Shown: in pieces, positions 6,075 through 59,313 of the stretch
Layout of the letters: the number at the start of each line of letters is the position of its first letter
Position numbering within the stretch: position 1 is the first letter of the stretch
Assembly (NCBI GenBank): GCA_024734495.1
Contig: JALMQS010000070.1
Span: 13,841,295-13,905,294 of the forward strand
Direction: 5' to 3'
DNA: 64,000 nucleotides
Source of the DNA: Forficula auricularia
Lineage: Eukaryota > Arthropoda > Insecta > Dermaptera > Forficulidae
Position numbers and translations under genes: made by a program
The notes under the pieces: model-generated
Database searches by the model: none
What the model was told of the DNA's origin: nothing
The model's input: only the letters and a program-made list of their open reading frames with translations

Positions 6075-6156
6075 CTAAATATTATAGATAATAAGTAAAA
6101 ATATATTTTTCTAGGTGGGTTTCACAAATAAAACAAATATATGTTTTGAGTTTTTT

Positions 6157-6198
6157 ATATCGATATATATTTCGGGTTATGAGCCCATCATCAGGAGT
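6157..6198 (-). ncRNA. Hammerhead-like module (ATATATAT stem III type)
   Basis: On the - strand: CTGATGA (6194-6188), one unpaired U, hairpin GGG/CCC, GAA, then ATATATAT closing on itself, then C and GA. This follows hammerhead order except for the extra base after the CTGATGA box. Stem I is only about 2 bp. Confidence 0.45.
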
Positions 6199-6484
6199 TA
6201 CAAAAGAAAACTAAATATAAAATTGGAAACAGATGTATAAGTGAAGTTCAATTGGGAGGAACGTACATGGTGGGGGGAAAGAATGCAGTATTGGTTATTG
6301 TATAAATAGACAAATGAACAAAGGAGTTTAACTATAAGGGCTTAGAATTATCCCTGGGCTTAGAAATAAAGGAAGAAGTAGAATAAGGTAAGGGAGGAGG
6401 GGTTAAGAACTTGAAAGAAACAATAGTAAAATATTAAAATAGAAATTTTGAGAATGGGAAATAATATTTTTCGGGTTATTTAAA

Positions 6485-6919
6485 TTATAAAATATAATCT
6501 ATAATGGTATTTTTATTAACTTCTAAATGGTTATTAAGGATGTTACTATTATTTGAAAGGGCTCTTTTAATTTCTGTGGACTCCAAAAGATCCAACCTAA
6601 GGCCTTTTCTTTCAAAATGAATAGGAATAGGATTATTAATAGAGGCCGAATGAGTAGAGGAATGTAAATGAATGGCGAAAGCAGAAGTTGAATCTAAATT
6701 GATGTTATCAGATCGGTCAAGGCGTTTAAGAGCACCAATATGTTCAGAGTAGCGTTTTCTGAAGGAGCGACCAGTCTGACCAATGTAAAATGCATCACAA
6801 TCATCACAAGTCAATTTATATACTCCTGCTTTGTCTAATTTATCAATTTTGTCTATTTTATTATTAATTAATCGAGAGCCTAAATTATTGTTATTATACA
6901 AAGCAGGAGTAATTCCCAC
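6485..6919 (-). pseudogene. GIY-YIG endonuclease C-terminal part, Penelope-like
   Basis: About 144 codons. It begins at a TAG-adjacent fusion with the inverted terminal sequence, so there is no natural start. Residues 31-51 hold the GIY-YIG core (GVYKL, then YIGQTG), with a CxxC (CDDC) between the two halves as in Penelope endonucleases, then R-FRKRYSEH. Near the end are NPIPIHFERKG and LDLLESTEIKRAL, the second of which recurs at 31275-31523. No frame breaks, but only the endonuclease end survives, so it cannot move by itself. Confidence 0.8.
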
Positions 6920-7008
6920 CTAGAAAAATATATTTTTACTTATTATCTATTAAAATGTTTCACCTAGAACCGACACCAAATTCTTTAAAGATTCTAAATA
7001 TTATAGAT

Positions 7009-12539: not shown

Positions 12540-12735
12540 TCTTAAAAAGAGAAACAAAGCTGTTGTCCTCTGCTTAATGCAAATAAACATACACACATAT
12601 ATATATATATATATCAAATATATAATATTATTTATTTGTTTGAGACTATAAGCCTCGAAGGCTTGGCCTTCATCATCAGTCTCTTTTAATTATAAAATTT
12701 TATAATTAAAAAAGACTGATGATGAAGGTATTAAT
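12540..12735. mobile_element. Partial Penelope-type foldback arm
   Basis: Contains CTCTGCTTAATGCAAATAAACATACAC-type sequence, an (AT)n run and an inverted module (12641-12683 - strand, with CTGATGATGAAGG). A short palindromic jump then returns to CTGATGATGAAGG at 12716. Same family as 55338-55814. Its GAAAC is mutated to GAGGC. Confidence 0.6.
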
Positions 12736-12822: not shown

Positions 12823-13316
12823 TTAAGGAGGTTCTTTCACGACAATCCACACAAAAAGTTTTAGCCTCGTAACCACTCTATAAATATGAACGGTGCTAAA
12901 ATTTTAGGGTATGCTTTTTAACATGACTGTACTTTTTACGCTACTATATTCTCATTATGAATGGATCGTTTACAAGCCATTGATATTATATCCCCTCCAC
13001 TAAAAATAATCGCCCAATTAGGTTTTTTATTTTTATTTTTTATCAAAACCACGTAGTAAATAATTTCAATTTTTTTTTTAAGTTACTCCGAATATAATTC
13101 TAACAAATATTAGTTTTTCATCAAGATGGTGAAAGTCCTTCAATGAAAAAAAATAAAATAATGATCATTTTCCCACCCTTTCCCAATCTACCATTATGTA
13201 AAAAATGTCATTTTTAATTGCAATTATTTCATTTTTGATGTGGTAAATCGTCTTCAAATTTTAATAGTCTGTTTATTATGCTTTTAATGACTTATATTCC
13301 AAGTTTCGAAGATTTG
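12823..13316 (-). mobile_element. MITE A, truncated copy
   Basis: Begins TTAAGGAGGTTCTTTCACG and matches the ~510-bp MITE A (56509-57016) in inverse orientation. The far end is cut by a foldback-family arm. Confidence 0.7.
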
Positions 13317-15189: not shown

Positions 15190-15830
15190 GTTAGTTATTT
15201 AGTTTGAAATATAAATAAACTGCAACGATCTTTGCTAAACTTTATCCAAAGTCATTTGAAATATTATATGTTTATTCTTTTATTATTAATCAGATATCAC
15301 TGGATATTTTCACTTAAATTCAAAAATAGTCATCGATTTTCATCTAATACCTACTCTAGGTATAACCATTCTACATTGGATTTTAAACGTTTCGGGTATT
15401 ATTGGTAACCATTGCTAAAGACATGGAGGAATAGACTTAAAATCAAAAATAGCGATTGATTCTCATCTATTACTTGAGGAATAACAATTCTACATTGGCT
15501 TGAGTTGTTTACCATAAAAGAATTTAGTCCTTTTGATTTTAAGTCGATTCTTCCACGATTTCAATAAAGGTTACCATTAATAGTCAAAACATCAAAAATG
15601 TAACCCAATAAGGTTACTCCTCTAGTATTAGATAAGAATCGATTGTTATTTTTGATTTTAAGCCGATTCCTCCATGTCTTCAGCAATGGTTACCAATAAT
15701 AACTGAAACGTCAAAAATCCAATGTTGAATGGTTATTCCTCAAGTACTAAATGAGAATCAATCGCTATTTTTGATTTTAAGTCGATCCCTCCATGTCTTC
15801 AGCAAAGGTAACGGATAAGAAAACAACGCA
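15190..15830. repeat. Helitron-related block with inverted minisatellite
   Basis: Starts with AACTGCAACGATCTTTGC as in the 10279 Helitron. Then a ~125-bp unit (AATAGCGATTGATTCTCATC ... GGTAACCATTGC ... GACATGGAGGAAT) occurs about twice forward (15320-15530) and about 2.5 times inverted (15530-15810). A related unit is at 11050-11170. Confidence 0.6.
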
Positions 15831-19149: not shown

Positions 19150-20325
19150 TTAGTCCAGTTAAATTGTTCTCTAAAGAGCCCCACGCGGGAAAGTTTTAGG
19201 GTAGTTTTGATTTCTTGAACCTATTATATTTGTTTTTTGGTGTGCTGAATCCGAATCTGAGATTTGATAAGAAAATTTTGTGACGTAACATTGTCAAAAA
19301 TGCAAATTTTTTGGCGATTTTTTGCTTATAACTCGAAAACTATCAACTTTTCGTAAATAACACAGTTTTTCCTTCATAAAATGAAAACCACTCATCTTAG
19401 AAACTTGATTACTATCTCATTCTCTAGGAAATTTTGTTGACTTGAACGTTTACTCGGACTACTTTTTTGATAAGGTCTTAGATTTATAGATATCCAGCAT
19501 TTTCTGGAGAGGATATGATCCGAATCCTCAAAAGTGTCATGGAAAATGCTGGATATCGATAAATCTAAGAATTTTAACAAAAAAGTGGTTTAAGTAAACG
19601 TTCAATTCAATAAAATTTTCTAGAGAATGAGATAGAAATTAAGTTTATATGATGAGTGGTCTTCATTTTATGAAGGGAAAAACTGCAATTTTTTGCAAAA
19701 AATTGCAGTTTTTCAAAATTTCATCCTCATTTCGGCATGGGTTACCATTATCCAATTAAAATGAAACTTTGTTTGAATTGTAGCAAATTTAATCTAGTTT
19801 AAAAATTTATGGAGTGGTCATTGTCGAAAAGGTGCTCTTTCATGGCCAAAATGGGAAAAAATCGAAAAAAGTGCGAGTTTTTGGGATTTGAGGAAACAGA
19901 AAAAATACGCCAATTTTCAACTATCGCTTGAGCTAGAACAGTTGGTCGGAAAAAAACCTAAATGATGAAATTTGTAGCAAATTTTATGACCTTTCATTTT
20001 GATTAGGAAGATTATTTACGAAAAGCTGATAGTTTTCGAGTTAAAAGCAAAAAACCGCTAAAAATGAGATTTTTTAACCTTTTGTGACATTTTTGACAAT
20101 GTTCCGTCATTAAATTTTGTTATGAAACCTCAGATTCGGATTCAGCATACCCAAAAACATAAAAGGTCGAAGAAATTACAACTACCCTAAAACCTTCCGG
20201 GTAAAAACACAATTTAACTGGACTATTTGTTTTAATAAAAAAAAATCCCACTAAATATTTTGCTTTATGGATTGACCCCCCCCCCCCCCCATGAAAATTT
20301 TCTGGCTATGCCACTGACAACGATA
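19150..20325. repeat. F foldback repeat, fullest copy
   Basis: About 1.18 kb. Outer arms AGTCCAGTTAAATTG and CAATTTAACTGGACT. The centre is near 19525 at GGATATGATCCGAATCCTC, flanked by inverted TAGATTTATAGATATCCAGC blocks. The right arm is longer and ends in AAATATTTTGCTTTATGG, C14, and TGGCTATGCCACTGA. No coding potential. Terminal poly-C/poly-G tracts are present in the copies that retain this end. Confidence 0.75.
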
Positions 20326-22720: not shown

Positions 22721-23579
22721 GCCAACAAGCCAGTTAAACATTGAACAATTTTTAAATAAATTTTAAATTTCCCCAAAACAACTTAAATAATTTTAATAAA
22801 AAACATATGAAAAAAATATGTAATATAAATTTATCCATTGTTGGGTGCTACCATTTTTTAAAATATTTTATATTAGACTAATTTATTTTTTTCAAAATTT
22901 CGCTAATAAGCCTTTAATTATTTTAATAAGCAAATTTGAGAAGATATAGAAAGAAATACAAGCTCCAGAAAAAAGTTAATCATTAAAAAAAGTAAAATAT
23001 TTTTTCCATGGATTTAATCATTAAGCTAATAATATATATGTAATTATTATCTCGGAAAAAATCATTTTCCTATTGTTTATCACAAGAAAGTATTTGGAGG
23101 GATCTTGTAGCCTTGTAAATCAAATCGTTTTATCAAAACCGTTTCAGTCGTTTTTGATAAAATCTAAAAAAATCTAAATTATGAAATAAAGACTAAAAAC
23201 TAAAAAGAAAAATCGCTTTAAGCACTTTTCGTGCATGAATAAAACTAGCAGATTTGTTGAAAAATTAAAAAAGTATAAATAAAGTACATATTTAAAAAAA
23301 ACGTGTTGCCCAACAAGTGAAGAATTACTACTATTTAATGTTTTCTTATCAAAAATTCGTTTATAGTAAAAAAAACCACCATTATTTAATGTATAAATTT
23401 TTATCAAAAGAATCTTTGTAGGTTAGATCCATAATCAGTCACATTGTTTTATCAAAACCCTTCCAGTCGGCTTTAAGAAATTTTGAAAAATCTAAAAAGT
23501 ATATAATTAAGTACTCACGCTAAAAAATGATTTTTAAAATCAATTATGGTATTTTCTTTCTTGAAAAAATAGCAGGTTT
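22721..23579. repeat. AT-rich intron/intergenic DNA with diverged repeat units
   Basis: Loose copies of the downstream array unit (TGTTGCCCAACAAGTGAAG near 23305) precede the regular array. No exon seen on either strand. Confidence 0.35.
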
Positions 23580-41600: not shown

Positions 41601-44600
41601 TTGTTTTTAGTGTAAATTTTTCATTATTTATTATTATCTCAGAAAATGTGTTGTAACTATGAATTGAAATTTTCTTAAAAAATGTATTGGTTATTGTTTA
41701 ATGTTGGTTTAGTTTTTTATAACACTGCTAAGTAGAGTTTGTTAATTATAATTAAATATGTATGTATACTTTCCGATATCCTTTATAGTGCAATGTATAA
41801 GAGTCTGAAAAACTCTATCTTTGAAATTTAATATCACCGGAACTATATTATTTATAAATTTCGTTTTACCACCAATCGATGCGCAAGTATTTAAATAATA
41901 ATCTGTAAATTTCAAAAAAATCCTAAGAAAACCCATATGGTGAAACAACTACCTTAAAATTACGATCGTAAGTTGTAGAAAAATAGTTTCTTTCCATAAC
42001 AATATTAATTTTGTTTGTTTTTTCTCTGCCCTGTAAAATTTCCTTGTTGTAAGTTAGCAGGTTTACTCTCTTAAGGCGACGATATAGGATATTTAATGTA
42101 TTGTTTTAGCTATTTTATATGCTTTGAAGTTACTAAGGTACACTAATAGTAAATTCACAAACCTATTATACACTGTTACTAGATCCTATGTCAAAATAAT
42201 AAATTTAAAAAGTTCTCAAAGTGAATATAAGACTTCATTTTTCTGATAAAAGTAGTCTTTAAATTTCCTAGGAAATCTCACGAGATTGTCATCAACTGGA
42301 ATTAATTATTTGTGAGAAAAGTTGTTTTCACCCTCTTCGGGAATGCCATCCATGCCAATTAACTGTCCGGGATTTGCCTCACAGAAGTCATTTGGTCCGG
42401 ATTGCTAATTTTGGCACTTCGGGTTCCGGTTCCCAAAACAACCCTTCTAACATATAATTCTAGTAGATGAAAATTTTGTGATTTCCATAAAAGTGTCCCG
42501 TATATCATTACTAAATATCTAGCAACCCTAGTGCTTGACATAAATAAGTAAAATTAAAGAGAAATCAATGAGGTTGTCCTCTGCTTGATGCAATTAAACA
42601 TATACATATTTATGTTTGGATATGTCTATGTTTATTCGTATCAAGCAGAGGACATCCTCATTGATTTCTCTTTATGAATCAACAACTCTGCTACTCTCGG
42701 CAAAACAAAATATTTTCAATTAAATAAATATGTTGAAGGAGACAATAAAAGAGTGTGTCTTCTGCTGGAATTATTCCAGTAGAAGCCACACTCTTTTATT
42801 GTCTCCTTCAACATATAAAAATTCTGCTACTCTCGGCACAAAAACTTTCAATTTAAATAAATATGTATTATATTATATATATTTGAAATAAATATTTAGT
42901 GTTATAAAATTCTTCCAGAACTTAAGTGACTTAATTTTTAAATTGAAAGGTTTTTATAGTCACAAACTAATAAAGACAGTAATTTTATTTATTTTAGTGA
43001 ATTAATAAAATAAAAAATAATAATTAAATAAAAATAATGTCTTTTATTAGTTTGTGATTATAAAAACCTTTCAATTTAAAAATAATAAATATTTATATTT
43101 AAGTTTATCAAGCAAGGAAACATTCTTAGATTTATTCCTTAGAGCAGTGTTTCCCAACCTTTTTCGATTCAGGGAACATTAGAAATGTTTAACTAAACTC
43201 TTAGTACCTGACTGCCCAACAATGAAAATGCCTCGGGCTCAAAAATACCTGATTCTTATGTATTTCCACCTGCTGAATCCAAAAATCACCTTAAAAATGA
43301 CCGATTAGCTTTTGTTTTGGAGATATTATCGGTCAAAAAGGCGAAAAGGGCCATTTTGACATATTTTCCAATCCCATTAGATATTAAACAGGAATATTTG
43401 ATATCACAATATTTTGTTGAAGTAATAGAAAACAACTTCTTCTTTGATTTACAAATTACGCCTTATTTTTAGCTCAATTAGAAATCGAGTTATAACTAAA
43501 AAACTAGAACTACGTGATTATAAAGGATAAAAACATATGGTCTTACATTTTTAGTTAAACTCGAGTTCTAATTGAGTTTTGAACAAGTGGTAATTTGAAA
43601 ATCAAAGAGGAAGCTGTTTTCTATTACGTCAACAAAATATTTTTATTTCAAATATTGCTGTTTAATATTTAATGTGACTCGAAAATAGGTCAAAATGGCC
43701 TTTTTCGTCGTTTATTATTATTATAACCACTACAAATTCAAACTTTTTTCGGAATATAAGTAGGTACTTTTCCTTTATTTTGGTTCACAATGAATAGAAA
43801 AATCATGAAATAAACTTTAGGTCAAGGAAAAAAATTTCTACAGTTGTGTAATATTTAAATGCAAAATGTATTATTTTAGGTGAATCCTTAACAATGAGTC
43901 CCGAAATCCCGGTTGAAAATCACTAGATCACTACCATATATATTGTATATAAATTAATATATTTTTTAATATTTTTCAGCGTAAAGATACATTACTCCAG
44001 GAGTATAATCAAAAAGATAAAGTAAATGTATTTAAGGATAATCGAATTGGAGAACGTAATGCATCGATGACCTCAGAAGATAAAATTCTTGCCCGATTTA
44101 CTGCTCATCAGAAGAAAGCTCATAAAGCAACAAAGTATAATTTAGCTGATGATGTGGAAGAGCTAACTCACAAAGGGCGAGCATTGACTGATATTGAAAT
44201 GCAGGAAGATCCTCGTAGTGATTTCGAAGATGATGACGATGATGATCTTATGAATGGAAAAAGTTACAAGGGAGGAAATCTTAGCTGTAAGTAAAAATTA
44301 ATATAATCTTATTTATTATTGAAACTTATATGTGGAGCGACCTTAAGGTAGTTCTTTCACAAATGCAAAAATTCAAGAAGTCTTAGAAACTTGGAATATG
44401 TTATTAAAAGCATAATAAACACACTGTTAAATTAATTTTTAAGGATTTAGGTGTCGGTTCTAGGTGAAACATTATAAGTAACTTATGAGGAGAATTTTCT
44501 AGGTTAGGTTTCACAAAAAGGAAATATTAAAACAAATGTAAGTGTATTTTGAGTTTGATTCATTCGATATATATTTCGGGTTATTAGTCCATCTTCAAGA

Positions 44601-47600
44601 GTTCAAATTCAGATTTTATTTGAACTTCTGAAGATGGAGCTAACCCGAAATATATATCGAATGAATCAAACTCAAAATAAACATACATTTGTTTTAATAT
44701 TTCCTTTTTGTGAAACCTAACCTAGAAAATTCTCCTCATAAGTTACACTGTTAAAATTTGAAGCCGATTTACCACACAAAACATGAAATTATAAATGAAA
44801 TTTTTTACATATGGTAGCATGGGAAAGGGTGGGAAAATGATCATTATTTTATTTTTTTTGATTGAAGGACTTTCGCCATCTTGATGAAAAACTAATATTT
44901 GTTAGAATAATATATTGGGAGTAAATTAAAAAAAAATTGAAATTATTTACCAAAAATATAAAAAAAAACATATTTGGGCGATTATTTTTAGTGGAGGGGA
45001 TAAAATATCAATGGCTTGGAAACGATTCATTCATAAAGATAATATAGTAGTGTAAAAAGTACAGTCACGTTAAAAAACATTTTAACACTGTTCATATTTA
45101 TAAGAGTGGTTACGAGGCTAAAACTTTTTGTGTGGATTGTCGCAAAAGAAGCTTAAAATTTGAATTATTAAACGGTTTTTGGGTCGCTCAGAAGCTAATG
45201 AATGCGAATAAGTCCATAAACAACAATAAATAAAAATTAATGTTTTTAAAATCCCATCCCCATAAGAAAACATATTCAAAAGAAATAAAAGGTAGACTGA
45301 GGATACCCGAAGAAAGTAATAAATCCTTTTATACTAAAAAGAATAAACCTAATTTATTGTTAGATTAACTCGAATCACAAGATTGTCGGGTTCCACGCTT
45401 ACCATCCAAACGGAAAAGGGTTCCACATTCGAAAAAGTTTGAGAAACACTGCTATAGATTATTTAGAGTAGCTAGCAATGTTTTCAGACGGTCCAAGGAT
45501 CAAGGGAATAAATTGTCTGAACAAATTATGTAAAAATGTATATAAATGTAAAAAGGGTCTTCAAATAAAGACACTATTATTATTATTATATATTATCTAG
45601 CAATGGATTCAAGGTAATTATATTATATTATGTCTGGGTTGATTTTGATGATTGTGAATGATTCATATGTACTTATTTTTAGAGCCTGATGAACCCATAA
45701 TAAATTGGCGAAACGTCGCAATTGATCGCATGTTTTAACACTGTGTTTATAATTGTTCCTTTTTTTCGTCTGATTTGCTCTAATAATAATAATGGAACTG
45801 AATAACAATAATGCTAATTTATTGTATAATTAAAGTTGTAGGGAAATAAGGGCTATATCTTTTATGCAGATAATTTATATTTTATTTTCAACATTTCGTC
45901 AACTGTTGTTGATGACTTGCCTTGATATGTTTACTAAGAAAGAATAATTATAAATTATATTTAAAAAAAAACTAAAAAACATGCTTATAAAAAGTACAAA
46001 ATAATGTAATACTTAATCAAAATGTGTGGGGCGCAGAAACTTTTATTTAATTTCGACAAAGTGCCCCACGCTTTTTGACTTTTTAGTCGTAATTATTTTT
46101 ATAGAGAAAAGTTTGCGGAATTTAACAGCATGAAATGTATTTATTTTTATATAATTTCATTTAAATTGGGTAGGTAAACAATTATTTATATAGAGAAATG
46201 TTTGCGGGATTTAACAGAACAAAAGTCACATTGATACATACAAGTTAACTACTAATTTATTGTATAATTCAGAAAATTTCCAAAAATAGACTTGAACACA
46301 GTCGATTCTGACTGACTCATTTTTTTGGTCGATATATTCACATATTTTATTTTTATTTTTCAGCTGACTTTGTAAGTAATGCCCATTTCGGCGGAGGAAT
46401 ACTTAGTAAAAGTGAAGATTCTAAAAATGGAGATATTCCCCAAAGTCGTAAAGATTTAATTGATCAATTAATATTGGAATCTAAAAAACGAAAAGCTGAA
46501 AAAATGCAAACCAAGGAGAAAACGCTAGCTATGACAGAAAAACTGGATGCCGATTGGAAAAATATTTTTTCGACAATTGTTCCCGCAAAGACAAAACAAG
46601 AGGAAAAAGACACGACTAAAGATGATTATGATATTTATGTCCAGCAATTGAAATTTGATCGACGAGGACAGGTATATATTGTTAATTGTTATTAATTATC
46701 TATACAAGATAAAGCCACTATTATTATCATAACTAAAATTATTCAATTCGAAAATTAAGAAAGAACATTTTAATTGAAGGGCCTGGTTGGCAGACAAAGT
46801 GGATTTTAATATTTTTTATCTGAAGCTATAGCTCTGAGCTAGTTGTCTTTATATAAAAAACTTATAGGAATCCCTTGATTAGTGCGGTTAATAAAATAAT
46901 AACTAGCAAAAAGTTAATGCTAGAGTATATAGAACAGACAATAAGGATTCATAATTCATAAGCCCAAAACTTTTTGCTGTTAATGTACCACTACTAGCCA
47001 ATCCCGTGCTCGTTTGGCAAATCTAGCAACACTGTCCGAGCTTCTATATATTTTATAATAGAAATGTCAGATAAAGTACATTATAAAGGTTGATTTATAA
47101 AACAAAATGTTCTTAATAAGCGATTGAAAGCTGTTGCGACAATGGCTGAAGCGAAAAAAGTCAAAAAAGTACTAAAGTTAACCCGCTTTTTAGGTTAAAT
47201 AAATGCGTTGTTGCCAGCTTGTTTTTAGTGTAAATTTTTCATTATTTATTCATTATTATCTCAGAAACTGTGTTGTAACTATGAATTAAAATTTTCTTAA
47301 AAAATGTATTAGTTATTGTTTAATGTTGGTTTAGTTTTTTATTACAATGGTAAGAAGAGTTTCTTAATTATATAATTAAATATGTATGTAAACTTTCCGA
47401 TATCCCGATAGTGCAATGTATAAGAGTGAAAAACTCTTGGAATTTAATTTAATGTCTAATAATTTAATATCTCCGGAACTATATTGTTCATAAATTTCGT
47501 TTTGCCACCAATCGATACAAAACTATTTAAATAATAATCTATCTTAATTTCAAAAAAATCCTAAGCAAACCCATATGGTGAAACAACTACCTTAATATGA

Positions 47601-50600
47601 TAACATATATCTGTATGCTTCTCAAACGAGATACTAAATAACCATCAAATTTTATACATCAACTATATAATTATATACTTTTTGATTTATCGAGTTTTTT
47701 TTACTGTAACTTTGAATAGCATATAATCCCCGGCTACCTTAATTTATTATATTAATGTTACCTGAGGTTTACTGAGAAATTTAAGATGAAATTTTAGAAA
47801 ATAAATATTTGTAGATTTATGACTAAAAAATCAAAAATTCCATTCACGCTACTTTCAATTTATTTATTCAATTTCTTATTCATTGCACTTTCAGCCAACT
47901 GATAAGCTAAAAAGTGAGGAGGAAATTGCTAAAGAAGAATTTGAGCGATTGAAAAAATTGGAGCAAGATCGATTAAATCGAATGCAAGGAATTACTTCTG
48001 AAGATAACAAACCTAAACATAGATCTGCTGATGATTTGGATGACGGGTAAGTAATCAATTAGTTTCTTATTTAGGGTGTTTCAATAATACAGGAATTTAG
48101 AATCTGGCAAAGCTTCAGCTATATTAATTCTGCATTCTTATAACACTTCTTAATCAATTTCCTATTTGTCTATCTTTCGTCAATTACATGACCCATTAAG
48201 ATGTTACAAAAATACACATATCGATATCCAGTGTATTGAGGCATACCTTCTAATGAAAGCAGTCCACGTGGTTGTAAAAAAATAAGACTATAGAGGTTTT
48301 ATTATTTTACATTTATTTGTTAAACCGACGTTTCGGAGATTTATTCTCTCCTTCTTCAGGGTAACAAAAAGTCAATGAAAGTAGTTCAAATCATAATTAC
48401 TTCCTGTCTCCTTTGACAATGCCAAAAAAAACATTATAAAAAATTTTCATCTCGAATAGAAATAAAGTAAAAATCAATATTGCTTTTTACTTTATTTCTA
48501 TTCGAGATGAAAAATTTTTATAATGTTTTTTTGGCATTGTCAAAGGAGACAGAAAGTAATTATGATTTGAACTACTTTCATTGACTTTTTGTTACCCTGA
48601 AGAAGGAGAATAAATCTCCGAAACGTCGGTTTAACAAATAAATGTAAAATAATAAAACCTCTAGTCTTATTTTTTTACAACCACCGAGGACTGCTTTCAT
48701 CAACATCCAATTGCATATTTATACCAGTCCGTCTCCTAAAGAAAAACTCTATCAATACCTTCTAATCCTAGGAAAAATAAGGTCAATTAACCCCTAAAAA
48801 CATCCTCTCCCAAATTACATTTTTTAATCAATATGGGTGCATCCCTAAACTAATAAGCAATGTAAGCCATTGAATGGACCCCGCCATAATAGCAAACAGC
48901 CCTCATAGAAAGTACTTAATGGGAATGAGCTACATTAAGAATCAAAAATTTTTCTTGCTATTAACTTACTTATTAATCATGAAATATGAGCTAAGATTGA
49001 AAGTGGCAGTCCCCTCTCCACAGATGCGAACCATGTACGAGACGTGGGCGGATTTGAGCCTTCTATATAGTAGGGTAAGAAGTTAAGTGAAAGTGAACAA
49101 GCGAATATTAACAAAGCTTACTTATATTAAAATGGACAATTTTAGAGGGTTTAAGAACGAGCCGCTGTGCATCTCCTAAGGTGACTCATTACAAAACACC
49201 TCTCCCTTGGCTCTATCCATGGAAGTAAAGGCTAGCCAGTTACGATATCCCCCTCTAGTACGACCTGACGGGATCCAGAGAAAAGGTGAACAACACTTCT
49301 GGAGTCTTTCTGTACCTTTTCCCTATTAGTCGCCTCTTACGACAAGCAGGGAATACTGCTGGTCTATTCTACTCCCAACCCGCAGGGCTTAGATGCAAAT
49401 AAACATATACATATATACCTATATATTCAATACAACCTCCATCGTTTGTTATGTGGCTAGCTTGCAATAACAAAACGAATTTATCTACACCCACTCGGGT
49501 AATTGAGCCCATGAGTAATAAAAATAACAGATAAAATATTGATGATGAAAGTCAAAGCCTAGAAATTACAGTTCCAAACAAATAAATTATAATTATTCGA
49601 TAAAATACTTTGTAGGTTTCACATTAAGATATAAAAAATAAAACAAATTTATTTTTAGAGAATCTTTAATCTCGATATATATATTTCGGGGGACTAACCC
49701 ATCTTCAGGAGAAACAGAAAGTAAATGACCTGAAATATATATATCGAGATTAAAGATTCTCCAAAAATAAATTCGTTTTATTTTTTATTTCTTAATGTGA
49801 AACCTACCAAGTATTTTATCCAATAATTTTAAAAAATGTTTCACCAAGTACCAACACCAAATTCCTTAAAAACCAAATAAATTATATATATACATATTTA
49901 TATTTAGTATATAAATATGTTTATTAGTGAGAATAATCTCTTTGATTTCTCTGTGAATCAACAACGCAGCTAATCTGGCAAAACAAAATCTTTTCAATAA
50001 ACTAGTTCCTTGATAAAAAATAAAAATAAATGGGGTTCCCCTCCTAATTTGTTTAGGGGTTTGTCCCCTAGACGGGTAGCCGATCAAGGCTGAAGAGTCC
50101 CATCCAACCTTTCCCTATTAGTCGCCTCTTACGACAAGCAGGGATTACTGCGGCTGTGGGTTTTCCAAATTCTGCTCAGTTTTAACCATTTATATTAAAT
50201 TTAGAACTTTAAAAATTATATTTTTTGTAGTTTTGAACTCATGGATACAATCACAGATGAATCGGAAATCATTTATGATAAAGATGGAAAACTAATTACA
50301 AAATTAGAAGAAGATGATACGTCGGAAGAAGAGGAGGATGAACTAGAAGATGAGGAAGATGAAGAAGAAGAAGAAAGTGAAGGAGATGATAATGAAGAAA
50401 TTGAAGGGGATGATAATGAAGAAAAAGAAGAAAGTGAAGGAGATGATAATGACGATGAAGATGATGACGAACATGATGATTTATCCGATTTAAGAGCTTC
50501 TAGTGATGATGAAGAAGATTCTGGTATGTTTTTACTAAATTTACATTTAGAAATATTTATCTCTTTTTGTAATCAAAATTCATTAATCAAAACTTTCTTT

Positions 50601-53600: not shown

Positions 53601-56600
53601 CAAAAGATTCACCTAATGAAGAAATTACAAACAGCAAGTAGGTTTTATTTAATTATGAATTCACTAAACACAGTTTATATGTATTTTAATATACACTCAT
53701 GACTTTTATTCTCAAGAAATAATCAACAATTCCATACAATATGAATTAATCATTTCATTTAAAATTTTTATCTCAATTGGAATTTTCTGCAATTCTTTTG
53801 CTAGACAACCAGGACTGGTCAATAGTAACTGGTCACTTATTGTAACTTGTAATTGGAACTAGTTTTCAAAATGAAAGGAACTACATAGTACAGTTTTTTT
53901 TTTTTGGGGGGGAGGAACTGTAACTTTAAAATTACTAATTCCTTGAAGTTATGGGGACAAACGTATTGGCGAATTAACTGGTCCGGCACTTTTCCAATTT
54001 AACCGCGAAAGCTTTCGGGAATCGGCAAAAATCATACTTTGGAGGGAATGACTATAACTCATCAGAGCCGTGGTAGTATCTATAAAATAGGGAAAGCACG
54101 GAAACGCTTCTTCGATGAGCTTTTCGGGTTGAGGGAGTTGGTGAGGGTCAAATCAAGCACCCCTTCGCTGTCAAATTGGATAAAAATCGAACAAGCGCTT
54201 TCGCAAACTCTTTTATTCCTATGACCTCCAGAGACTGGAACTCGCTCCCAGCCACCGTCTTCCCCGCGACTTATAACCTTCAGCTGTTTAAGACCCGTAT
54301 CCACAGATACCTTCGACCCCTACCCAGCCCATAAAAACCCTTCTTCTTCTTCTTTTCACGATGGAGGGGCCAACCCAAGCCTTTAGGGGATGCACCTTTT
54401 TGGTGTAACTCCTTCTCTTATCATTTTCATTAAAAAAAAAATCGTCAATTAGCCTAACAGCTCGTTTCTGAATTGCATCCAGAGTAAATTTTGAAAGAAA
54501 AACAATTAAATACATTAAATATTTGACCGATATGGACTATATAATGCACACTTACTCTTTTATGACATTACGAAATAAATTGAACTAAAATCATTTACCC
54601 AGAGGGGAGTAAGAAAAAAAAGAAATGAAATCTAATCAAATTTTAGTTATTCTTAAGGACCATACAGAATGAATTAAATAATAATTACTTACTTATCGCG
54701 GACTCTCGACGCTTCTCCGCACCCAGTCTCCATCTTTCTCGATCCTGACTATCCTCTTCGTTTAGGTTTCAGGATCGCATACCCTCGTTCATGTCGTCCA
54801 TCCAACATCGTCTGGCACGATCCCTCCTCCGTTTCTCCCATGGTGTCCATTGTAGAACCCTATTTGGGATTCTTTCCTCATCCATTCTTCATAAAAATTA
54901 CATGTCCTAAATGGAAGGGGGAGGGGATGATTAAAAAAACCAAAATAATTAAATCTTAGCTGATTTGTACAATATTTTTCACATTTACTCTTTAGAATCC
55001 TGTGGGATAAATGGGGCAAAACTTAGCAACAAATCTTTGGGGATGGTAAAAATAGAACCTCGTTGGACTTTAAAATCAGAAAAAAAAAAATTAATTATTA
55101 TTCGTATGAGTATTATTTTTAAAAAATTACTTTTTGTTGTACAAAAAAATTGGCATGTCTTTGCACTGTATTACTTTATCATTGCCCTCAAAACGGGTAT
55201 ATGTAAAGGTTATGTCAATGCATAAGCACTTTACACTAAATAAATCAAAATGTTTAAAAGTAACTTGTAACTCTGAGTAATTCCTTTAAATAAAAGATAC
55301 TCAGTTCTTTAAAATGATATTAACCTAGTAACTTATTTAATTGAAAAGTTTTTATTTATAGTAACATATTCACAAAGAGAAACAAAGAGGTTGTCCTCTA
55401 CTTGATGCAAATAAACATACACACATATATATCGAAATTATATATCTGTATATATATATATATATTATTTATTTGTTTAAGACTATACTTTCGAAGACTT
55501 GGTCTTCATCATCAGTCTTTTATTAATTATAAATATTGTTTTTCATGGAGTCAATACCGTATGAATATTGAAAATTTTCGATCTTTACTTAGTAAATATC
55601 CATGAAAAACAAAATTTATAATTAAAAAAAGTCTGATGATGAAGACCAAGTCTTCGAAACTATAGTCTCAAACAAATAAATATTGGTATATACAGATATA
55701 TAATTTCGATATATATATGTGTGTATGTTTATTTGCATCAAGCAGAAGACAACCTCTTTGTTTCTCTTTGTGAATCAACAACTCTGCTACTCTCAGCAAA
55801 ACAAAAACTTTTCAAGTAACTTATTCCCTAGAAGTTATGAAACTGCCCAGCCCTTTTTACAACAAACACAATATTGAATTAAAAAGAAGGCGGTAATCTT
55901 AGTCTTATCTAATACCTAATATGACGGAAATTTTTATTTCAGCAAAATTGATCTTCGACTTTCCTTTGCCAATCTGGATTCTGAAAACCCAAAAAATAAT
56001 AAATCCGAGTTAATCTCCAAATGTATATATACAGCATTAAAGATGTTAAAAGAAATTTTAAATATTCATGGTGAAAATTTAACATCACCTCAACATCTTT
56101 TTGAGCCATTTTTGTTGATTTTAAATAAATTACAAAGTCATTTGAAAAAAATTCAAAATGAATCTTTGGCATTAGAACAAATCAAAATATTGGTTGATTC
56201 AAATCTAGAGCTTTTAAATAAAATATTGGAGAAACCTTTAGAAAGACTTATACCAGAAGTGAAGAAACCAAAATTATTAAGACAATATGAACCACGAGTG
56301 AAAAAAGTTTATGACGATAAACATCATCGGTCGAGTGATCCAGAGAAAAATGAGCGGAATAAACTTTTACATAAAATCAAGAGGGCAAAGAAAGGAGCTT
56401 TGCGAGAAATTCGAAGAGACAAAGCTTTCATAGCTAAGGTTAAATTGAAAGAAACATTAAGAAGGTAAAATAATCATTCATAATATAAATTATTATTAAA
56501 AAAATTGATTAAGGTAGTTCTTTCACAAATACAAAAATTCAAGAAGTCTTATAAACTTGGAATATAAGTCATTAAAAGCATTATACACATACTGTTAAAA

Positions 56601-57362
56601 TTTGAAGACGATTTATCACACCAAACATGAAATAAATGCAATTAAAAATGAAATTTTTTACATAGGGTAGATTGGGAAAGGGTGGGAAAATGATCATTAT
56701 TTTATTTTTTTCATTGAAGAACATTCACCATCTTGATGAAAAACTAATATTTGTTAGAATAATATATTCGGAGTAACTTAAAAAAAATTGAAATTATTTA
56801 CCTTGTAGTTTTAATAAAAAAATTGGGCGATTATTTTTAGTGGGGGGATAGAATATCAATGGCTTGGAAACGATCCATTCTTAAATAGAATATAGTAGCG
56901 TAAAAAGTACAGTCACGTCAAAAAACATAACCTAAAATTTTAACACCGTTCATATTTATAGTGTGGTTACGAGGGTAAAACTTTTTGTGTGGATTGTCGC
57001 GAAAGAACCTCCTTAAATAAAACTTAACTTAATACAATACACTTGTGCATAAGAGCTCAAACTATTTTCAGAAATAGTAAATGCAACTTATTTTAATTAA
57101 GATAATTTATTTTAATGAAAATTACAATATAAGTTTATTGCTTTTACAAACATTTAAACATTCAAAAATGTTTAAATACAAAGGATTCTTTTATAAATTC
57201 AAAGTTATTTTTATTTAGGTATTTAATAATTTAATTTATATTTTTATACTAACACTAATATTTATTTTTAGTGATGCTGAACGAATGGCTAAAGTTAAAG
57301 AAATTTACGGATCAGCAGCCACTCAACAGGGAGAATTACGAAAATTGGAAAGGAATAAATAA
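38439..57362 (+). CDS. NOP14: NOP14 homologue, nucleolar SSU-processome protein, 12 exons, complete
   Basis: NOP14 acts in the nucleolus in the U3 snoRNP/SSU processome and is needed for 18S rRNA maturation and 40S assembly. Exons: 38439-38609, 43980-44286, 46364-46671, 47895-48046, 50231-50523, 50659-50790, 50862-51049, 52977-53132, 53199-53363, 53456-53637, 55943-56464, 57272-57362. All junctions are GT-AG and all phases join, giving 2,667 nt or 888 residues, close to the usual 800-900 of the family. Visible family features: a basic N-terminus followed by NPFEIH and the GLPGVSRSKA block (about residues 21-55), a long acidic run (about 340-405), the PYTFE-FPESYEEF segment (about 450-462), and a basic C-terminus with KGALREIRRDKAFIA (about 837-851). 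The spread over 19 kb comes from repeat-filled introns. The reading frame has no breaks, so the gene is probably functional. Identity rests on recognition of the family; exon joins are seen directly. Confidence 0.93.
38934..39345 (-). pseudogene. LINE RT C-terminal scrap
   Basis: - strand reads LERVQHTFLRTVNYKLG, LISHLKLNTLEQRRDYND and KLNFRIPSHSTRSQDMF, a Jockey-type ORF2 end. Lies antisense in NOP14 intron 1. Confidence 0.7.
39500..40116 (-). pseudogene. LINE RT C-terminal scrap, frameshifted
   Basis: HIYKAHIRPCLECGSHLWRG, LDAIQKRAVRLIDD, LSLFYRYYHGRCSDE, MTSRNWNSLPA, then a frame change to YNLHTFKTRVHRHLRL. Same LINE family as the scraps at 29190, 53935 and 54165. Confidence 0.75.
40302..40564. 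mobile_element. Palindromic insertion, 12-bp target duplication
   Basis: TATTCACATAGA at 40302-40313 and 40553-40564. Arms share TGCAAATAAACATACACACA and ATATATCTGTATATAT, meeting at TAAATAAATAAATAAAT. The module region is deleted in both arms. Confidence 0.8.
41270..41957. mobile_element. MITE B, complete copy
   Basis: TTAAGGTAGTTGTTTC and GTGAAACAACTACCTTAA ends. 688 bp including TTAA at each end. Noncoding. In NOP14 intron 1. Confidence 0.85.
42542..42720. mobile_element. Foldback-family copy without modules
   Basis: ATCAATGAGGTTGTCCTCTG and its complement flank an ~60-bp centre, ending CAACTCTGCTACTCTCGGC. The next insertion sits directly beside it. Confidence 0.65.
42721..42866. mobile_element. 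Minimal 120-bp palindromic insertion, 13-bp target duplication
   Basis: TAAATAAATATGT at 42721-42733 and 42854-42866. Arms GAAGGAGACAATAAAAGAGT and complement meet at GGAATTATTCC. The smallest clean example. Confidence 0.8.
42930..43085. repeat. 150-bp palindrome
   Basis: AAATTGAAAGGTTTTTATAG and complement, loop of AT-rich sequence near 43010. Confidence 0.65.
43145..43979 (+). mobile_element. hAT-like end and intron spacer
   Basis: CAGTGTTTCCCAACCTTTTTCG at 43145 is a hAT-type terminus pointing toward NOP14 exon 2. An inverted partner lies at 45430-45451, beyond the exon. Confidence 0.5.
43980..44286 (+). CDS. NOP14: NOP14 exon 2
   Basis: Starts after a TTTTTCAG acceptor with RKDTLLQEYNQKDK and ends in phase 1 at AGCT|GTAAGT. 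It contains the conserved N-terminal NOP14 stretch with FKDNRIGE, followed by LTHKGRALTDIE, and a run of aspartates near its end. Confidence 0.92.
44343..45156 (+). mobile_element. MITE A copy, split by a foldback
   Basis: TTAAGGTAGTTCTTTCAC to GAAGCTTAA. Interrupted at ACACTGTTAAA by 44432-44745. Original length about 490 bp. In NOP14 intron 2. Confidence 0.8.
44421..44756. mobile_element. Palindromic insertion, 11-bp target duplication
   Basis: ACACTGTTAAA at 44421-44431 and 44746-44756, matching a single copy of this string in the other MITE A elements. Modules at 44565-44604 (-) and 44624-44662 (+, CTGAAGA...GAAATATATATC). Confidence 0.85.
45157..46363 (+). other. NOP14 intron 2, second half
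   Basis: Contains the hAT-like right end (45430-45451), a LINE-type tail AAATAAAGACACTATTATTA at 45565, and a + strand module CTGATGA...GGCGAAACGTCGC near 45687-45720. Confidence 0.5.
46364..46671 (+). CDS. NOP14: NOP14 exon 3
   Basis: Acceptor TTTTTCAG; the first two bases complete the serine codon split with exon 2. Contains HFGGGIL and the SRKDLIDQLILESKKRK block that is typical of NOP14. Ends in phase 0 at GGACAG|GTATAT. Confidence 0.92.
46672..47894 (+). other. NOP14 intron 3
   Basis: Mostly one MITE B copy; the rest is AT-rich without features. Confidence 0.7.
46888..47595 (+). mobile_element. MITE B, left end truncated
   Basis: Matches 41270-41957 from AACTAGCAAAAAGTTAATGC to GTGAAACAACTACCTTAA. 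The left terminal repeat is reduced. Confidence 0.75.
47895..48046 (+). CDS. NOP14: NOP14 exon 4
   Basis: Acceptor CTTTCAG. Codes for PTDKLKSEEEIAKEEFERL and then LEQDRLNRMQG, a charged helical segment conserved in the family. Ends in phase 2 at GACGG|GTAAGT. Confidence 0.92.
48243..48766. mobile_element. 500-bp palindromic insertion, 12-bp target duplication
   Basis: ATACCTTCTAAT at 48243-48254 and 48755-48766. Arms of about 215 bp with very few differences meet near 48481. Each arm has a complete module (48316-48368 -, 48588-48638 +). Confidence 0.88.
48588..48638 (+). ncRNA. Hammerhead-like module, best stem I
   Basis: TTTGTTACC (stem I), CTGAAGA, A, GGAGA-ATAAA-TCTCC (stem II), GAA, ACGT (stem III), C, GGTTTAACAAA (stem I partner, 8-9 pairs with a small bulge). 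The expected cleavage would be after C48627. The extra A48604 departs from the hammerhead consensus. Confidence 0.6.
49140..49390. repeat. LINE-tail-like repeat
   Basis: CTCTAGTACGACCTGACGGG, then CCTATTAGTCGCCTCTTACG and ACAAGCAGGGAATACTGC. The last part recurs at 50107-50152. Similar strings are common at insect LINE 3' ends; class not resolved. Confidence 0.5.
49579..49886. mobile_element. Palindromic insertion, 13-bp target duplication
   Basis: CAAATAAATTATA at 49579-49591 and 49874-49886. The left arm has a module (49671-49712 -), the right arm lost part of it (CCTGAAATATATATATCGAG). The right end is TGTTTCACCAAGTACCAACA, as in the 6075-7008 element. Confidence 0.8.
50231..50523 (+). 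CDS. NOP14: NOP14 exon 5, acidic domain
   Basis: Acceptor TTTTTTGTAG. The first base completes a glycine codon shared with exon 4. Most of the exon is a glutamate/aspartate tract with imperfect internal repeats (EEESEGDDNEE units), as in other NOP14 proteins. Ends in phase 1 at TCTG|GTATGT. Confidence 0.9.
50659..50790 (+). CDS. NOP14: NOP14 exon 6
   Basis: Acceptor TTTGCAG. Lysine/glutamate-rich, including a near-exact repeat of MKEEENKKI-like units, ending in VPYTFE at the start of the conserved central region. Donor GAAT|GTAATA, phase 1. Confidence 0.88.
50862..51049 (+). CDS. NOP14: NOP14 exon 7
   Basis: Acceptor GCATAG. Codes for FPESYEEFEELL through SVIVERIIKCHKLGLDEQNRE, the start of the conserved helical core. 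Ends in phase 0 at CCACAA|GTATTT. A mariner remnant begins about 30 bp into the following intron. Confidence 0.9.
51080..51966 (+). mobile_element. Mariner deletion derivative in NOP14 intron
   Basis: Inverted ends AGGTGTACAAATATGGAATG and complement, TA on both sides, 883 bp between. Sense-oriented with NOP14. Confidence 0.85.
51290..51881 (+). pseudogene. Mariner transposase remnant
   Basis: HTH region in one frame (TTAAESYRMLREAYGEHACE, GWFWRFKNGGFHVADKEHGK), stops near 51450, then from about 51640 LGVLAHAAFSPDFAPSDIHL with the third catalytic aspartate and the tail WEKCITSDGA. Middle deleted, frames broken. Confidence 0.8.
52142..52654. mobile_element. pogo/Tigger-type MITE, TA duplications
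   Basis: TA-flanked ends CAGTGGTACCTTGAGATACG and complement. 509 bp, further GAGATACGAAT and GACATACGA motifs inside. Noncoding. Confidence 0.85.
52977..53132 (+). CDS. NOP14: NOP14 exon 8
   Basis: Acceptor TTCTTTTAG. Phase 0 on both sides, 52 codons, from DTFKLVERLAPIFYDLAQ to KRIPSLNT. Matches the helical repeat core of the family. Donor ACG|GTAATA. Confidence 0.91.
53199..53363 (+). CDS. NOP14: NOP14 exon 9
   Basis: Acceptor TTGTAG. Phase 0 on both sides, 55 codons. Contains the conserved LIPYIFPTSDF-HRVTSPA and DLTRGLFL motifs. Donor GAG|GTAATT. The intron before it is only 66 bp. Confidence 0.92.
53456..53637 (+). CDS. NOP14: NOP14 exon 10
   Basis: Acceptor TTTCTAG, phase 0. Begins YTSLSKRFCPIVINFLRGI. 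Ends in phase 2 at AGCAA|GTAGGT and joins the first base of exon 11 to make an asparagine codon. Confidence 0.9.
53935..54490. mobile_element. LINE scrap nested in an opposite-strand LINE scrap
   Basis: - strand LINE sequence (as at 39670-39960) is broken at about 54150 and resumes at 54440 (LDAIQKRAVRLIDD). Between, a + strand LINE tail reads MTSRDWNSLPATVFP, YNLQLFKTRIHRYLRPLPSP, stop, then a 3' UTR and poly-A at 54430. Confidence 0.7.
55327..55825. mobile_element. 477-bp palindromic insertion, 11-bp target duplication
   Basis: AGTAACTTATT at 55327-55337 and 55815-55825. Outer ends TTGAAAAGTTTTTATTTATAG and complement. Modules at 55480-55517 (-) and 55631-55670 (+). Inner arms ATTATAAATATTGTTTTTCATGG. 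Reference copy for the CTCTGCTTGATGCAAATAAAC family. Confidence 0.88.
55631..55670 (+). ncRNA. Hammerhead-like module (ACTATAGT stem III type)
   Basis: CTGATGA, T, GAAGAC-CAA-GTCTTC (stem II), GAA, ACTATAGT (self-complementary stem III), C, TC. Stem I is short (GA/TC). Confidence 0.5.
55943..56464 (+). CDS. NOP14: NOP14 exon 11, longest exon
   Basis: Acceptor TTTCAG. Contains the SPQHLFEPFLLIL segment, the LRQYEPRVKK motif and the basic KIKRAKKGALREIRRDKAF motif, all characteristic of the NOP14 C-terminal third. Ends in phase 2 at AGAAG|GTAAAA. Confidence 0.93.
56509..57016 (+). mobile_element. MITE A, complete copy in the last NOP14 intron
   Basis: TTAAGGTAGTTCTTTCAC and GCGAAAGAACCTCCTTAA ends, 508 bp with TTAA at both ends. 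Noncoding. Confidence 0.88.
57272..57362 (+). CDS. NOP14: NOP14 exon 12 (stop codon)
   Basis: Acceptor TTTTTAG. Completes a serine codon, then DAERMAKVKEIYG and a Q/E/R-rich tail to TAA at 57360-57362. The intron before it (56465-57271) holds a full MITE copy. Confidence 0.91.
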
Positions 57363-57448
57363 AATAAATGTTGATTGTATATATTATGTTAATTAAAATA
57401 AGATATATTTTGATTGTAAATATATATTAAGGTAATAAAATAAGTTAT
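57355..57448 (+). terminator. Candidate NOP14 polyadenylation region
   Basis: Two AATAAA hexamers overlap or touch the stop codon (57355-57360, 57362-57367), and another AATAAA lies near 57436. A very short 3' UTR is likely. Which signal is used cannot be told from sequence. Confidence 0.45.
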
Positions 57449-58835
57449 TTTTTAATTGCTGTCTATTTATATACGTATACAGAATAGAAAAAAACCCATT
57501 ACTAATAAGGTCTTTTTGAGAATAAATAAGTATTAGGTTAAACCAATCTTAAAAATATAAATAAATTTAAAAACTCCTAACTTTCATACTTAAAATTCAC
57601 GAAAATCAGCAACCCCTAGATGCCGCCTAATTCCAAATTTAGGTGAGGTGAGAAGGGGTGAAAAATAAAAATAATTCAAAATGACCGAGATTATTGTAGA
57701 ATCCATAGTTTTCGGGGTCGCTGAGATCATACTGCCGATGCTGTTTAATTTCAAGTTGGGAGTGGGGGGTGGGGGAAGGTCAGAAATAAAAATAATCAAA
57801 AACGAACGATATTATTGTAGAATGCATAGTGTTCGAGGTTGCTGAGATGATTAGTGACATTGTCGATGCCGTTTAATTCCAAGTTAAGGACGTTCCCGAA
57901 TTTAGCTCAGAAGCCATTCGCTCTTTCCCCTACTCTCACATGCGCAGAAATGCAAAAATATTTTCACTGCGTCGTTTCTCGGATCTGGCAACATTGCATT
58001 CTTATCGACGCTAAAAGACAAAGAATAAAAAAAAAATACTTTATGAAACAGCTCCATACGAAATTCCAGAGTGAGAACAGTTTAGTTAGGTTGAGAGAAT
58101 TAGCTAAAAATCTCAAATGCACCAGATGCAGAAGTTTTTTAGATATGGAAAAATTGAGTGATTTTAGTGCGACGTTGCCAACTCGCCATCTCTCACTTGC
58201 CATGCTATGAGAGAAAAAATGAAAACCATCAAAAGTACCTCATTTTTAACATTTTTCATACAAAACGAATACCGCTTTATACAATTATTTTAACAGAAAA
58301 ATATTTGTTATATATCCAGTTAATGATTATCAGTTTTTCAAAATAATTTCAAGAAAATTACGATTGTTATTTAATGAAACAGTCGCTTTAACATCAATCG
58401 GGATAGGGTTCTCGTGTTAAATATTCAAATTTCAAAGGTCAATATTTATAAATTTAGTCCCGCAAGGACTATAGAAAAAAAATTCTAGGTATAAAGGACA
58501 CTTATAAATATGTGTATTCAAAGTTTTAAAAGGATTGCAAGAAAATCGATTTATTAGGGGACGTCATTAAGCCCTATCAGCATGGGGTTGAGAATGGGTT
58601 GAAAATAAAAATAATAAAAAATGAACGAAATTAGTGTAGAATCCATAGTTTTTGGGGTCGCTCACATGAATAAAGCAGCTATGAATTAAGTTAGGGAATA
58701 GAGTAAAAAATGTTTGTTTAAGAGATGGGACGAGCTGGGAATTGATCCTGCCCCTTTGGATTGCATTCACTTCAAATTTTACTAGAGCGGAAAAAACAAC
58801 ATTGTCTGGGACGGCAAAAAAATTAAACACCGGTC
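57449..58835. repeat. Intergenic with a three-times repeated ~90-bp block
   Basis: GTAGAATCCATAGTTTTCGG-type blocks lie at about 57640-57733, 57760-57851 and 58585-58672, each after AAAAATAAAAATAATCAAAA. The open frame 57854-58210 between them is unsupported as a gene. Confidence 0.55.
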
Positions 58836-59313
58836 ATAATACAGTTTCATAAAGAGAAACAAAGAGGTTGTCCTCTGCTTGATGTAAATCAACATACACA
58901 CATATATATCGAAATTATTTATCTGTATATATATTATTTGTTTGAGACTATAGTTTGGAAGACTTGGCCTTCATCATCATTCTTTTTAATTATAAATATT
59001 ATTTTTCATGGGATTAGTATCGCGAGGATATTGAAAATTTTCTTCTTTGCTGGATAGCCAGCTAGAATTAAAAAAATTTTAATACTGATCCCATGAAAAA
59101 TAATATTTATAATTAAAAAGACTAATGATGAGGGCCAAGTCTTCGAAACTATAGTCTCAAACAAATAAATAATATATATACAGGTATATAATTTCTATAT
59201 ATACGTATGTATATTTATTTGCATCAAGCAGAGGACAACCTCTTTGTTTCTCTTTATGAATCAACAACTCTGCTACTCTCGGCAAAATAAAAACTTTTCA
59301 AATAATACAGTTT
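58836..59313. mobile_element. 454-bp palindromic insertion, 12-bp target duplication
   Basis: ATAATACAGTTT at 58836-58847 and 59302-59313. Same family as 55327-55825. Both modules have a mutated first box (AATGATGA on the - strand, CTAATGATGA on the +). Lies between the convergent ends of NOP14 and the Sfi1-like gene. Confidence 0.85.

Follow-up and report, generated by a model that had tools for sequence, protein, structure and literature searches.

How did ten palindromic sequences, each bounded by a short direct duplication of its target, come to lie within a single 64-kb stretch of the genome of Forficula auricularia? This stretch, the whole of the DNA analyzed here and hereafter called the window (C631:13841295-13905294; 30% GC, within a 1.06-Gb genome), was the subject of an original prediction according to which each palindrome is a single insertion, with a target site duplication (TSD), of a head-to-head dimer made by Penelope-type machinery. 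We read the ten insertions as head-to-head pairs of truncated sequences that have the anatomy of Penelope-like elements (PLEs) and were likely made by two-ended target-primed reverse transcription (TPRT). The rules behind this proposal are drawn from about 40 insertions in this one genome, with samples in the tens rather than a whole-genome count.

All ten predicted palindromic insertions are present, and nine have an exact TSD where it had been placed. For the tenth, E6, the TSD (ACACTGTTAAA) is likewise exact at 44421-44431 and 44745-44755; only the right boundary of the element, predicted as 44432-44745, had been set 1 bp too far, and the element spans 44432-44744. The insertions and their features are as follows:

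6075-7008, E1: TSD 6075-6089/6994-7008; long tailless arm from 6090 rightwards, antisense; short arm 6915-6944; tail 6945-6993.
6647-6883, minus strand: GIY-YIG remnant within the long tailless arm of E1 (tblastn, 41.8% over 79 amino acids, E 1.9e-12).
30973-31726, E2: TSD 30973-30985/31714-31726; tail on the left, 30986-31039; arms 31040-31179 and 31574-31713, 99.3% identical.
31192, minus strand: hammerhead-like motif of E2.
32795-33136, E3: TSD 32795-32803/33128-33136, 9 bp; palindrome 32804-33066; tail 33067-33127.
33001 (plus strand) and 32870 (minus strand): hammerhead-like motifs of E3.
40302-40564, E4, family A: TSD 40302-40313/40553-40564; tail on the left, 40314-40353; palindrome from 40354, tailless end 40552.
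42721-42866, E5, family-A relative: TSD 42721-42733/42854-42866; palindrome 42734-42810; tail 42811-42853.
44421-44755, E6: TSD 44421-44431/44745-44755; tail on the left, 44432-44477; palindrome 44478-44744.
48243-48766, E7: TSD 48243-48254/48755-48766; palindrome 48255-48700; tail 48701-48754.
48597 (plus strand) and 48359 (minus strand): hammerhead-like motifs of E7.
49579-49886, E8: TSD 49579-49591/49874-49886; palindrome 49592-49827; tail 49828-49873; inside an older family-A-like copy.
55327-55825, E9, family A: TSD 55327-55337/55815-55825; tails at both ends, the left with an internal deletion.
55633 (plus strand) and 55515 (minus strand): hammerhead-like motifs of E9.
58836-59313, E10, family A: TSD 58836-58847/59302-59313; palindrome 58848-59260; tail 59261-59301.

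A flanking match of at least 11 bp occurs at nine of the ten elements and at 2 of 300 random placements. The 9-bp TSD of E3 is weak when taken alone, as 37 of 300 random placements reach at least 9 bp, and E5 can also be read with a 14-bp TSD. The elements are asymmetric: a single tail of 40-61 bp lies outside the palindrome in nine, E9 being tailed at both ends, and the matched arms of E1 and E2 are just 30 and 140 bp, the remainder being one-sided. A second palindrome scan, blind to the earlier list and covering the window and 20 loci of the family-A search described below (263,820 bases), returned 85 non-overlapping palindromes, of which 26 have a duplication of at least 11 bp, versus 13 of 600 random placements. 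Four of these 26 duplications are low-complexity and the entry for E5 is a 16-bp repeat between two tails rather than its TSD; the figure is not a genome rate, as PLE hits had guided the choice of the 20 loci.

The affinity of these elements emerges from a genome search with the Pfam GIY-YIG model, which gave 150 scored matches among 3,423 candidates, several of them in open frames of more than 800 codons. One locus, L021 (G000:C563:409000-418990), contains head-to-tail units, 99.6% identical and repeating about every 2,909 bp, and has two open frames of 858 codons containing an RVT_1 reverse transcriptase (RT) domain (E 1.6e-16) and a GIY-YIG domain (E 8e-6), both above the cut-off. This near-identical PLE tandem array, which marks a recently expanded family, is joined head-to-head to an inverted copy. 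Counted from the preceding stop codon, the L021 frame begins INNSATLGKTKTFQ, and the same codons form the tail of E4, E5, E9 and E10. Family A, typified by L021, thus displays the tandem or partial-tandem copies that form the pseudo-long terminal repeats (pLTRs) of PLEs, a single open reading frame (ORF) combining RT and GIY-YIG domains, and an optional tail that is the beginning of this frame, although the tail precedes the first Met codon (residue 32). A PDB search with the ORF returned only other RTs. E4, E5, E9 and E10 are members or relatives of the L021 PLE, E5 being placed by its tail; the arms of E9 and E10 are each 83-92% identical to it. The attribution to Penelope-type machinery is hence borne out by the open RT and GIY-YIG frame in the same family and by the tail that corresponds to the beginning of that frame.

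The remaining elements belong elsewhere. The GIY-YIG remnant of E1, whose Pfam match (E 0.0012) falls below the cut-off, points to another PLE family, to which E2, E6 and E8 appear related in sequence; by tblastn it is the only coding remnant in the ten insertions, in line with the prediction that most lack coding sequence. A tblastn search with the family-A frame gave no match in the window copies of the E3 and E7 families, and E3 and E7 are probably further PLE families, judged by anatomy alone (tail and motif, and for E7 also the two kinds of end described below). That motif is a hammerhead-like core (CTGANGA-stem II-GAAA), of which the window has nine copies and 20 single-base shuffles of it none, and which is also present in L021; six of the nine window cores lie in E3, E7 and E9, on opposite strands, and by eye the flanks of the core in E3 and E7 can pair as a stem I, with GTC after the core. 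No part of the window matched an Rfam hammerhead model at E up to 5, nor did L021 at E up to 0.5. Other Rfam matches, including MIR5048 and mir-8517, all score below the gathering threshold and are mostly palindrome hairpins, which we do not take as microRNAs; SNORA55 matches on the PLE are likewise below threshold. Unlike LINE-1 insertions, the elements lack a 3' poly(A) or simple-repeat tail and end instead in the tail or at a second fixed site. Their ends are not mutual inverted copies like those of terminal-inverted-repeat transposons and miniature inverted-repeat transposable elements (MITEs), the tail being one-sided in nine of the ten; and the E7-family copies are inverted pairs or solo (L059 with a partial direct copy in addition) rather than the direct tandem monomers of retrozymes.

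The family-A sample comprised 32 loci from the GIY-YIG search (12 + 20), each compared with one stretch of L021, of which 26 matched; L016, a repeat of L015, was dropped. The head-to-head share in this set is inflated because eight of the 20 loci were picked for two diverging GIY-YIG hits nearby; the tail played no part in the choice. Two outer ends and a head-to-head center are present at 18 loci; the remaining seven (L010, L018, L021, L022, L031, L035 and L037) are solo, open or unclear, and smaller fragments in L028, L034 and L039 were left unscored. The E7-family sample was built from the 40 best genome matches to the tail-bearing arm of E7, 25 of which have an inverted neighbor within the same match list; the top 24 by rank were examined (E7 and 23 loci). 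Since these loci were picked by similarity to the tail-bearing arm, they cannot serve to compare the frequencies of the two kinds of end.

Those ends fall at two fixed positions of the element. In family A, with the TSD trimmed, the tails end at +36 to +49 and the tailless ends lie at -6 to -1 in 14 of the 15 insertions having one end of each kind, L024 being left out as it has no clean TSD. Site A, at the tail, is thus about 42 nt inside the open frame, and site B, at the tailless end, about 3 nt before it, so that B lies about 44 nt upstream of A. The same arrangement recurs in 15 E7-family insertions, where the tailless end is at query position 230-234 and the tail end at 272, a distance of 38-42 nt. 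The two sites are moreover paired: among 17 scored head-to-head family-A insertions, 15 are A/B, two are A/A (L028 and L032) and none is B/B. When these ends are paired at random, as many as 15 mixed pairs arise with p = 0.0024. L034, with one end at neither site, was excluded from this test. E9 is an A/A insertion in the window with an 11-bp TSD. In the E7 family an inverted tailless partner is present at 21 of the 24 loci examined (counting L045, though its flank is shared with L047); of the other three, L046 and L049 are solo insertions, and in L055 the inverted part is limited to an internal piece. Compared with shuffled sequence, the RNA around sites A and B shows only a slight gain in folding (z -1.6), and we claim no start-site stem-loop.

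The length of the TSD is also nearly constant. Across 42 exact sites (14 of family A, 17 of the E7 family, nine other window elements and two others) the lengths are 9 (1), 11 (3), 12 (23), 13 (13), 14 (1) and 15 bp (1). The duplications, predicted to be of variable length, are hence 12 or 13 bp in 36 of 42 and look like the product of a fixed stagger; a chance match of one neighboring base would fairly often turn a fixed 12 into 13. Shorter TSDs are under-sampled in this set because the search aimed at long ones. No TSD was accepted for the E7-family loci L045, L049, L051 and L055, and L061-L063 lay outside the test. A dyad-symmetric target motif, considered over all 41 sites, differs from random sites (p = 0.001) but not from AT-matched ones (p = 0.092), and we do not claim it.

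That each palindrome entered in one event is upheld where it could be followed, with paralogous empty sites for four of the ten elements (E3, E4, E6 and E8) and none found for the other six. The joined flanks of E4 with one target copy form a 210-nt sequence, and all 40 matches listed (88-97% identity) span the junction, with no net change of length in 19; the surroundings of E4 are therefore a multicopy repeat, other copies of which are without it. Empty sites paralogous to E3 lie at 47160-47448 and 41545-41835, and those paralogous to E6 at 56509-56757, 60447-60694 and 13100-13315; both in the window and in L031, L034 and L040, each such site has a single target copy, sometimes mutated. E8 interrupts an older PLE-like copy, which continues across the joined flanks at 72% identity and has gaps past the junction. 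The joined flanks of E1 gave 41 matches, none of them crossing the junction, and for E2, E5, E7, E9 and E10 comparison with the window and the collected loci yielded no empty site.

Within one insertion the two arms have unrelated lengths—196 and 3,161 nt in L030, 87 and 2,593 in L036, 1,148 and 72 in L015. The tail is on an arm shorter by more than 100 nt in five of the 15 A/B insertions (L024, L027, L030, L036 and L040), on the longer arm in seven (in L020 via an internal deletion), and the arms are within 100 nt of each other in three. In those five and in E1 the shorter arm has a tail that the longer lacks; hence the shorter was not copied from the longer. The exact overlaps at 14 family-A centers are -5, -2, -2, -1, 0, 1, 2, 3, 3, 3, 3, 4, 4 and 6 bp, so that microhomology of at least 3 bp is present in 7 of 14 centers, versus 8% in simulation (p = 4.5e-5); the centers of L024 and of L017, L020, L029 and L033 (homopolymer or hairpin) are unscored, and counting them as misses gives 7/19. 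The prediction of head-to-head dimers holds for the layout, but a dimer is too simple a description of arms that begin at two different RNA positions and end without relation to each other. Some centers (L017, L033 and E3) have long runs of A or T, which could be non-templated additions or template jumps.

Family A has 38 informative sites, at which the two arms of an element carry the same allele in 352 of 360 cells; shuffling arms among elements gives 64%, and none of 2,000 shuffles reached the observed level. Since both family-A arms usually share their subfamily alleles, it is likely that the two RNAs, or one RNA used twice, came from one source locus, though arm-to-arm gene conversion could raise the agreement. 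On the question of one or two source RNAs, family A points to a single source and the E7 family is mixed, its tail-bearing arms having been selected by similarity to the query.

We propose that the GIY-YIG endonuclease of the element would cut the target on both strands, leaving a 3' stagger of 12 nt. Each TSD copy adjoins the start of a complementary DNA (cDNA), so the top strand would have been cut on the right and the bottom strand on the left of the 12-bp target, leaving 12-nt 3' overhangs. From each overhang a separate cDNA would be primed on the RNA of the element, at site A for one, giving the tail, and at site B for the other, giving the tailless end, with two first strands replacing a first and a second strand. 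Both cDNAs would run toward the 5' end of the RNA and, as the unequal arms show, stop independently; their 3' ends would meet head-to-head and be joined at a short microhomology, with annealing and fill-in by host enzymes, and copying of the overhangs would yield the 12-bp TSD. Biochemistry of a lizard PLE lends support by analogy to the core of this proposal: its protein, predicted to dimerize, cuts the target on both strands and extends each of them, starting on the RNA at two neighboring sites that delimit the genomic tail (PMC11167929). In the earwig insertions the sequences themselves show the empty sites, the boundaries, the TSD, the unequal arms, the shared alleles and the microhomology, while both cuts by the GIY-YIG protein, priming by the RT at both ends and the repair step are inferred. 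A more specific version has, in our estimate, an even chance of being right: a dimeric RT-GIY-YIG complex would make the 12-nt 3' overhangs and initiate two first strands simultaneously, its protomers being obliged to use A and B; there would be no conventional second-strand step, the cDNAs would template each other, and palindromes would be the default product.

Several observations weigh against two-ended priming with one A and one B start. The pairing rule is not absolute, L028, L032 and E9 being tailed at both ends; L028 and L032 are without a clear TSD, L024 (A/B) has only a doubtful 8-bp match, and L034, with an end at neither site, has no TSD that we could find. Solo one-arm insertions exist, namely L046 (12-bp TSD) and L035 (11-bp TSD). 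Half of the scored centers (7/14) have 2 bp or less, or filler, with five more unscored, and those of L020 and L029 are near-perfect hairpins that would fit self-priming. Agreement of alleles is weaker in the E7 family (without L045), at 33/40 versus 66% shuffled (p = 0.0025), and at its position 32 the arms agree in just 6 of 10. The dyad-symmetric target expected of a dimeric nuclease was not found beyond AT-richness (p = 0.092 against AT-matched sites), and the family-A tail lies upstream of the first Met codon. In vitro, the lizard protein showed no strand difference in start site (PMC11167929), a result that gives no reason to expect one A and one B per insertion.

Could a single initiation suffice instead? 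In self-priming, proposed from palindromic junctions in the Penelope elements of Adineta vaga (PMC3846280), a cDNA or antisense RNA would fold back at its 3' end and copy itself. The hairpin-like centers of L020, L029 and several E7-family insertions, along with the source alleles common to both arms, fit this, and L020 and L029 could be of the self-primed kind. As a general account it is nonetheless unlikely: the tail of five of the 15 A/B insertions, and of E1, belongs to the arm that is clearly the shorter, which therefore has sequence absent from the long one, and self-priming gives no reason for the tailless boundary to stay at a single RNA position, as it does in both families. One-ended TPRT, with the second arm supplied by host repair or by an accident resembling the twin priming of some LINE-1 insertions, seems to us equally improbable. 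Twin priming uses both target strands and internal RNA priming, and solo PLE insertions (L046 and L035) do occur. LINE-1 inversions with duplications at the breakpoint are also reported (PMC12350158). In our insertions, however, the second arm starts from a single, fixed RNA position and copies the RNA region of the first arm over again; in the E7 family an inverted partner is not rare, being present in 21 of the 24 loci examined (the top of 40 by rank).

Two further readings start from the palindrome itself. Inverted arms and a near-fixed TSD are also what fold-back DNA transposons or MITEs moved by a transposase would show; the ends are not mutual inverted copies in nine of the ten window elements, the center varies from copy to copy, and long copies have an RT/GIY-YIG frame and a truncated 5' side. 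This anatomy of tail and truncation rules out such transposons as the main explanation, and we give them almost no chance. A palindromic source element, transcribed and inserted as a ready-made unit, would account for the similar outline of same-family copies in the window, yet the outer ends are constant while the centers differ, both among the family-A junctions and among E4, E5, E9 and E10; for family A this contradicts the idea, which we hold to be very unlikely overall. Two-ended TPRT is accordingly the reading that we retain.

The window contains other sequences of related aspect. Further PLE-type palindromes lie beyond the ten, such as 32119-32360, 42555-42674 and 26249-26459; by eye, each of the first two adjoins a family-A-like tail and the third has a hammerhead-like core, and palindromes at 12667-12728 and 61296-61421 have a family-A-like core or an E6/E8-like end. 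In the geometry searched, none of these five has a TSD of at least 8 bp. Six long palindromes with arms of 75-97% (506-1080, 34536-34937, 43336-43713, 19336-19712, 15312-15782 and 25966-26180), in which neither a hammerhead core nor a TSD of at least 11 bp was found, are possibly another class of fold-back element. At 61754-62088 an interval of 100 bp separates two identical 87-bp inverted arms; a 12-bp AT-only repeat (AATTATATTATA) occurs at 61754-61765 and again, 39 bp past the arm, at 62077-62088. This is possibly a young PLE-type insertion of another family. The window also has a mariner-like transposase remnant at 29466-30191 on the minus strand (HTH_48 above the cut-off, DDE_3 below), an open frame at 55920-56468 on the plus strand, about 100 bp past E9, that matches the C-terminal part of Nop14 (E 6e-28) and may be a host gene exon or its copy, and a tandem array at 23567-24413 (216-bp unit, 3.9 copies, 92% matches).

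Parts of this picture have been described before; the comparisons that follow draw on the available portions of the sources cited. Inverted pLTRs with one tail were published in 2013 (PMC3846280) and extension of both strands in vitro in 2024 (PMC11167929). In the Adineta vaga Penelope elements an inverted pLTR lies beside direct pLTRs, mostly head-to-head as here, a 31-bp tail is optional on one inverted pLTR, resembling our one-sided tail, the TSD is 8-10 bp, and one element has a 15-bp overlap at the inverted junction. Those copies are few and were explained by self-priming on an antisense template; in that portion of the account we found no A/B rule, TSD statistics or test of arm origin (PMC3846280). 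The Anolis carolinensis Poseidon element PAc, characterized in vitro, shares with family A a protein that combines RT and GIY-YIG, a tail delimited by a pair of adjacent internal RT start sites, and a hammerhead near the pLTR/ORF junction, its counterpart here being a motif that is hammerhead-like by sequence alone. Its main start is 111-118 bp into the ORF, whereas the open frame here has site A about 42 nt from its beginning, ahead of the first Met; within the portion available, that account does not discuss inverted insertions, leaves open the steps after the first priming and gives no pairing of start sites per end (PMC11167929). LINE-1 twin priming likewise leaves an inverted junction inside the insert (PMC12350158). 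LINE-1 insertions end in poly(A), whereas ours have a fixed second start, from which point the arms overlap. Metazoan retrozymes resemble the E7 family in being short and non-coding, with repeats of about 300 bp; their type I hammerhead motifs would correspond to the hammerhead-like motifs of that family, but they are direct tandem repeats rather than inverted pairs with a tail and a TSD (PMC7229834). The individual facts thus have precedents, and as far as we have searched the combined rules and the two-ended mechanism are new. We found no statement of a two-ended model for PLEs in the available portions of the open-licence literature; subscription papers fell outside the search, and priority is uncertain.

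The rules observed here give a testable pathway of integration distinct from the TPRT of long interspersed nuclear elements, and point to a retroelement machine seeding many palindromes. They also help to recognize short non-coding PLE insertions that might otherwise be called fold-back elements or MITEs. The two-ended model would explain two structural puzzles together, the inverted pLTR and the one-sided tail; if the stricter version with protomers bound to A and B is true, these would be the direct footprint of an asymmetric pair of starts rather than optional oddities of PLEs.

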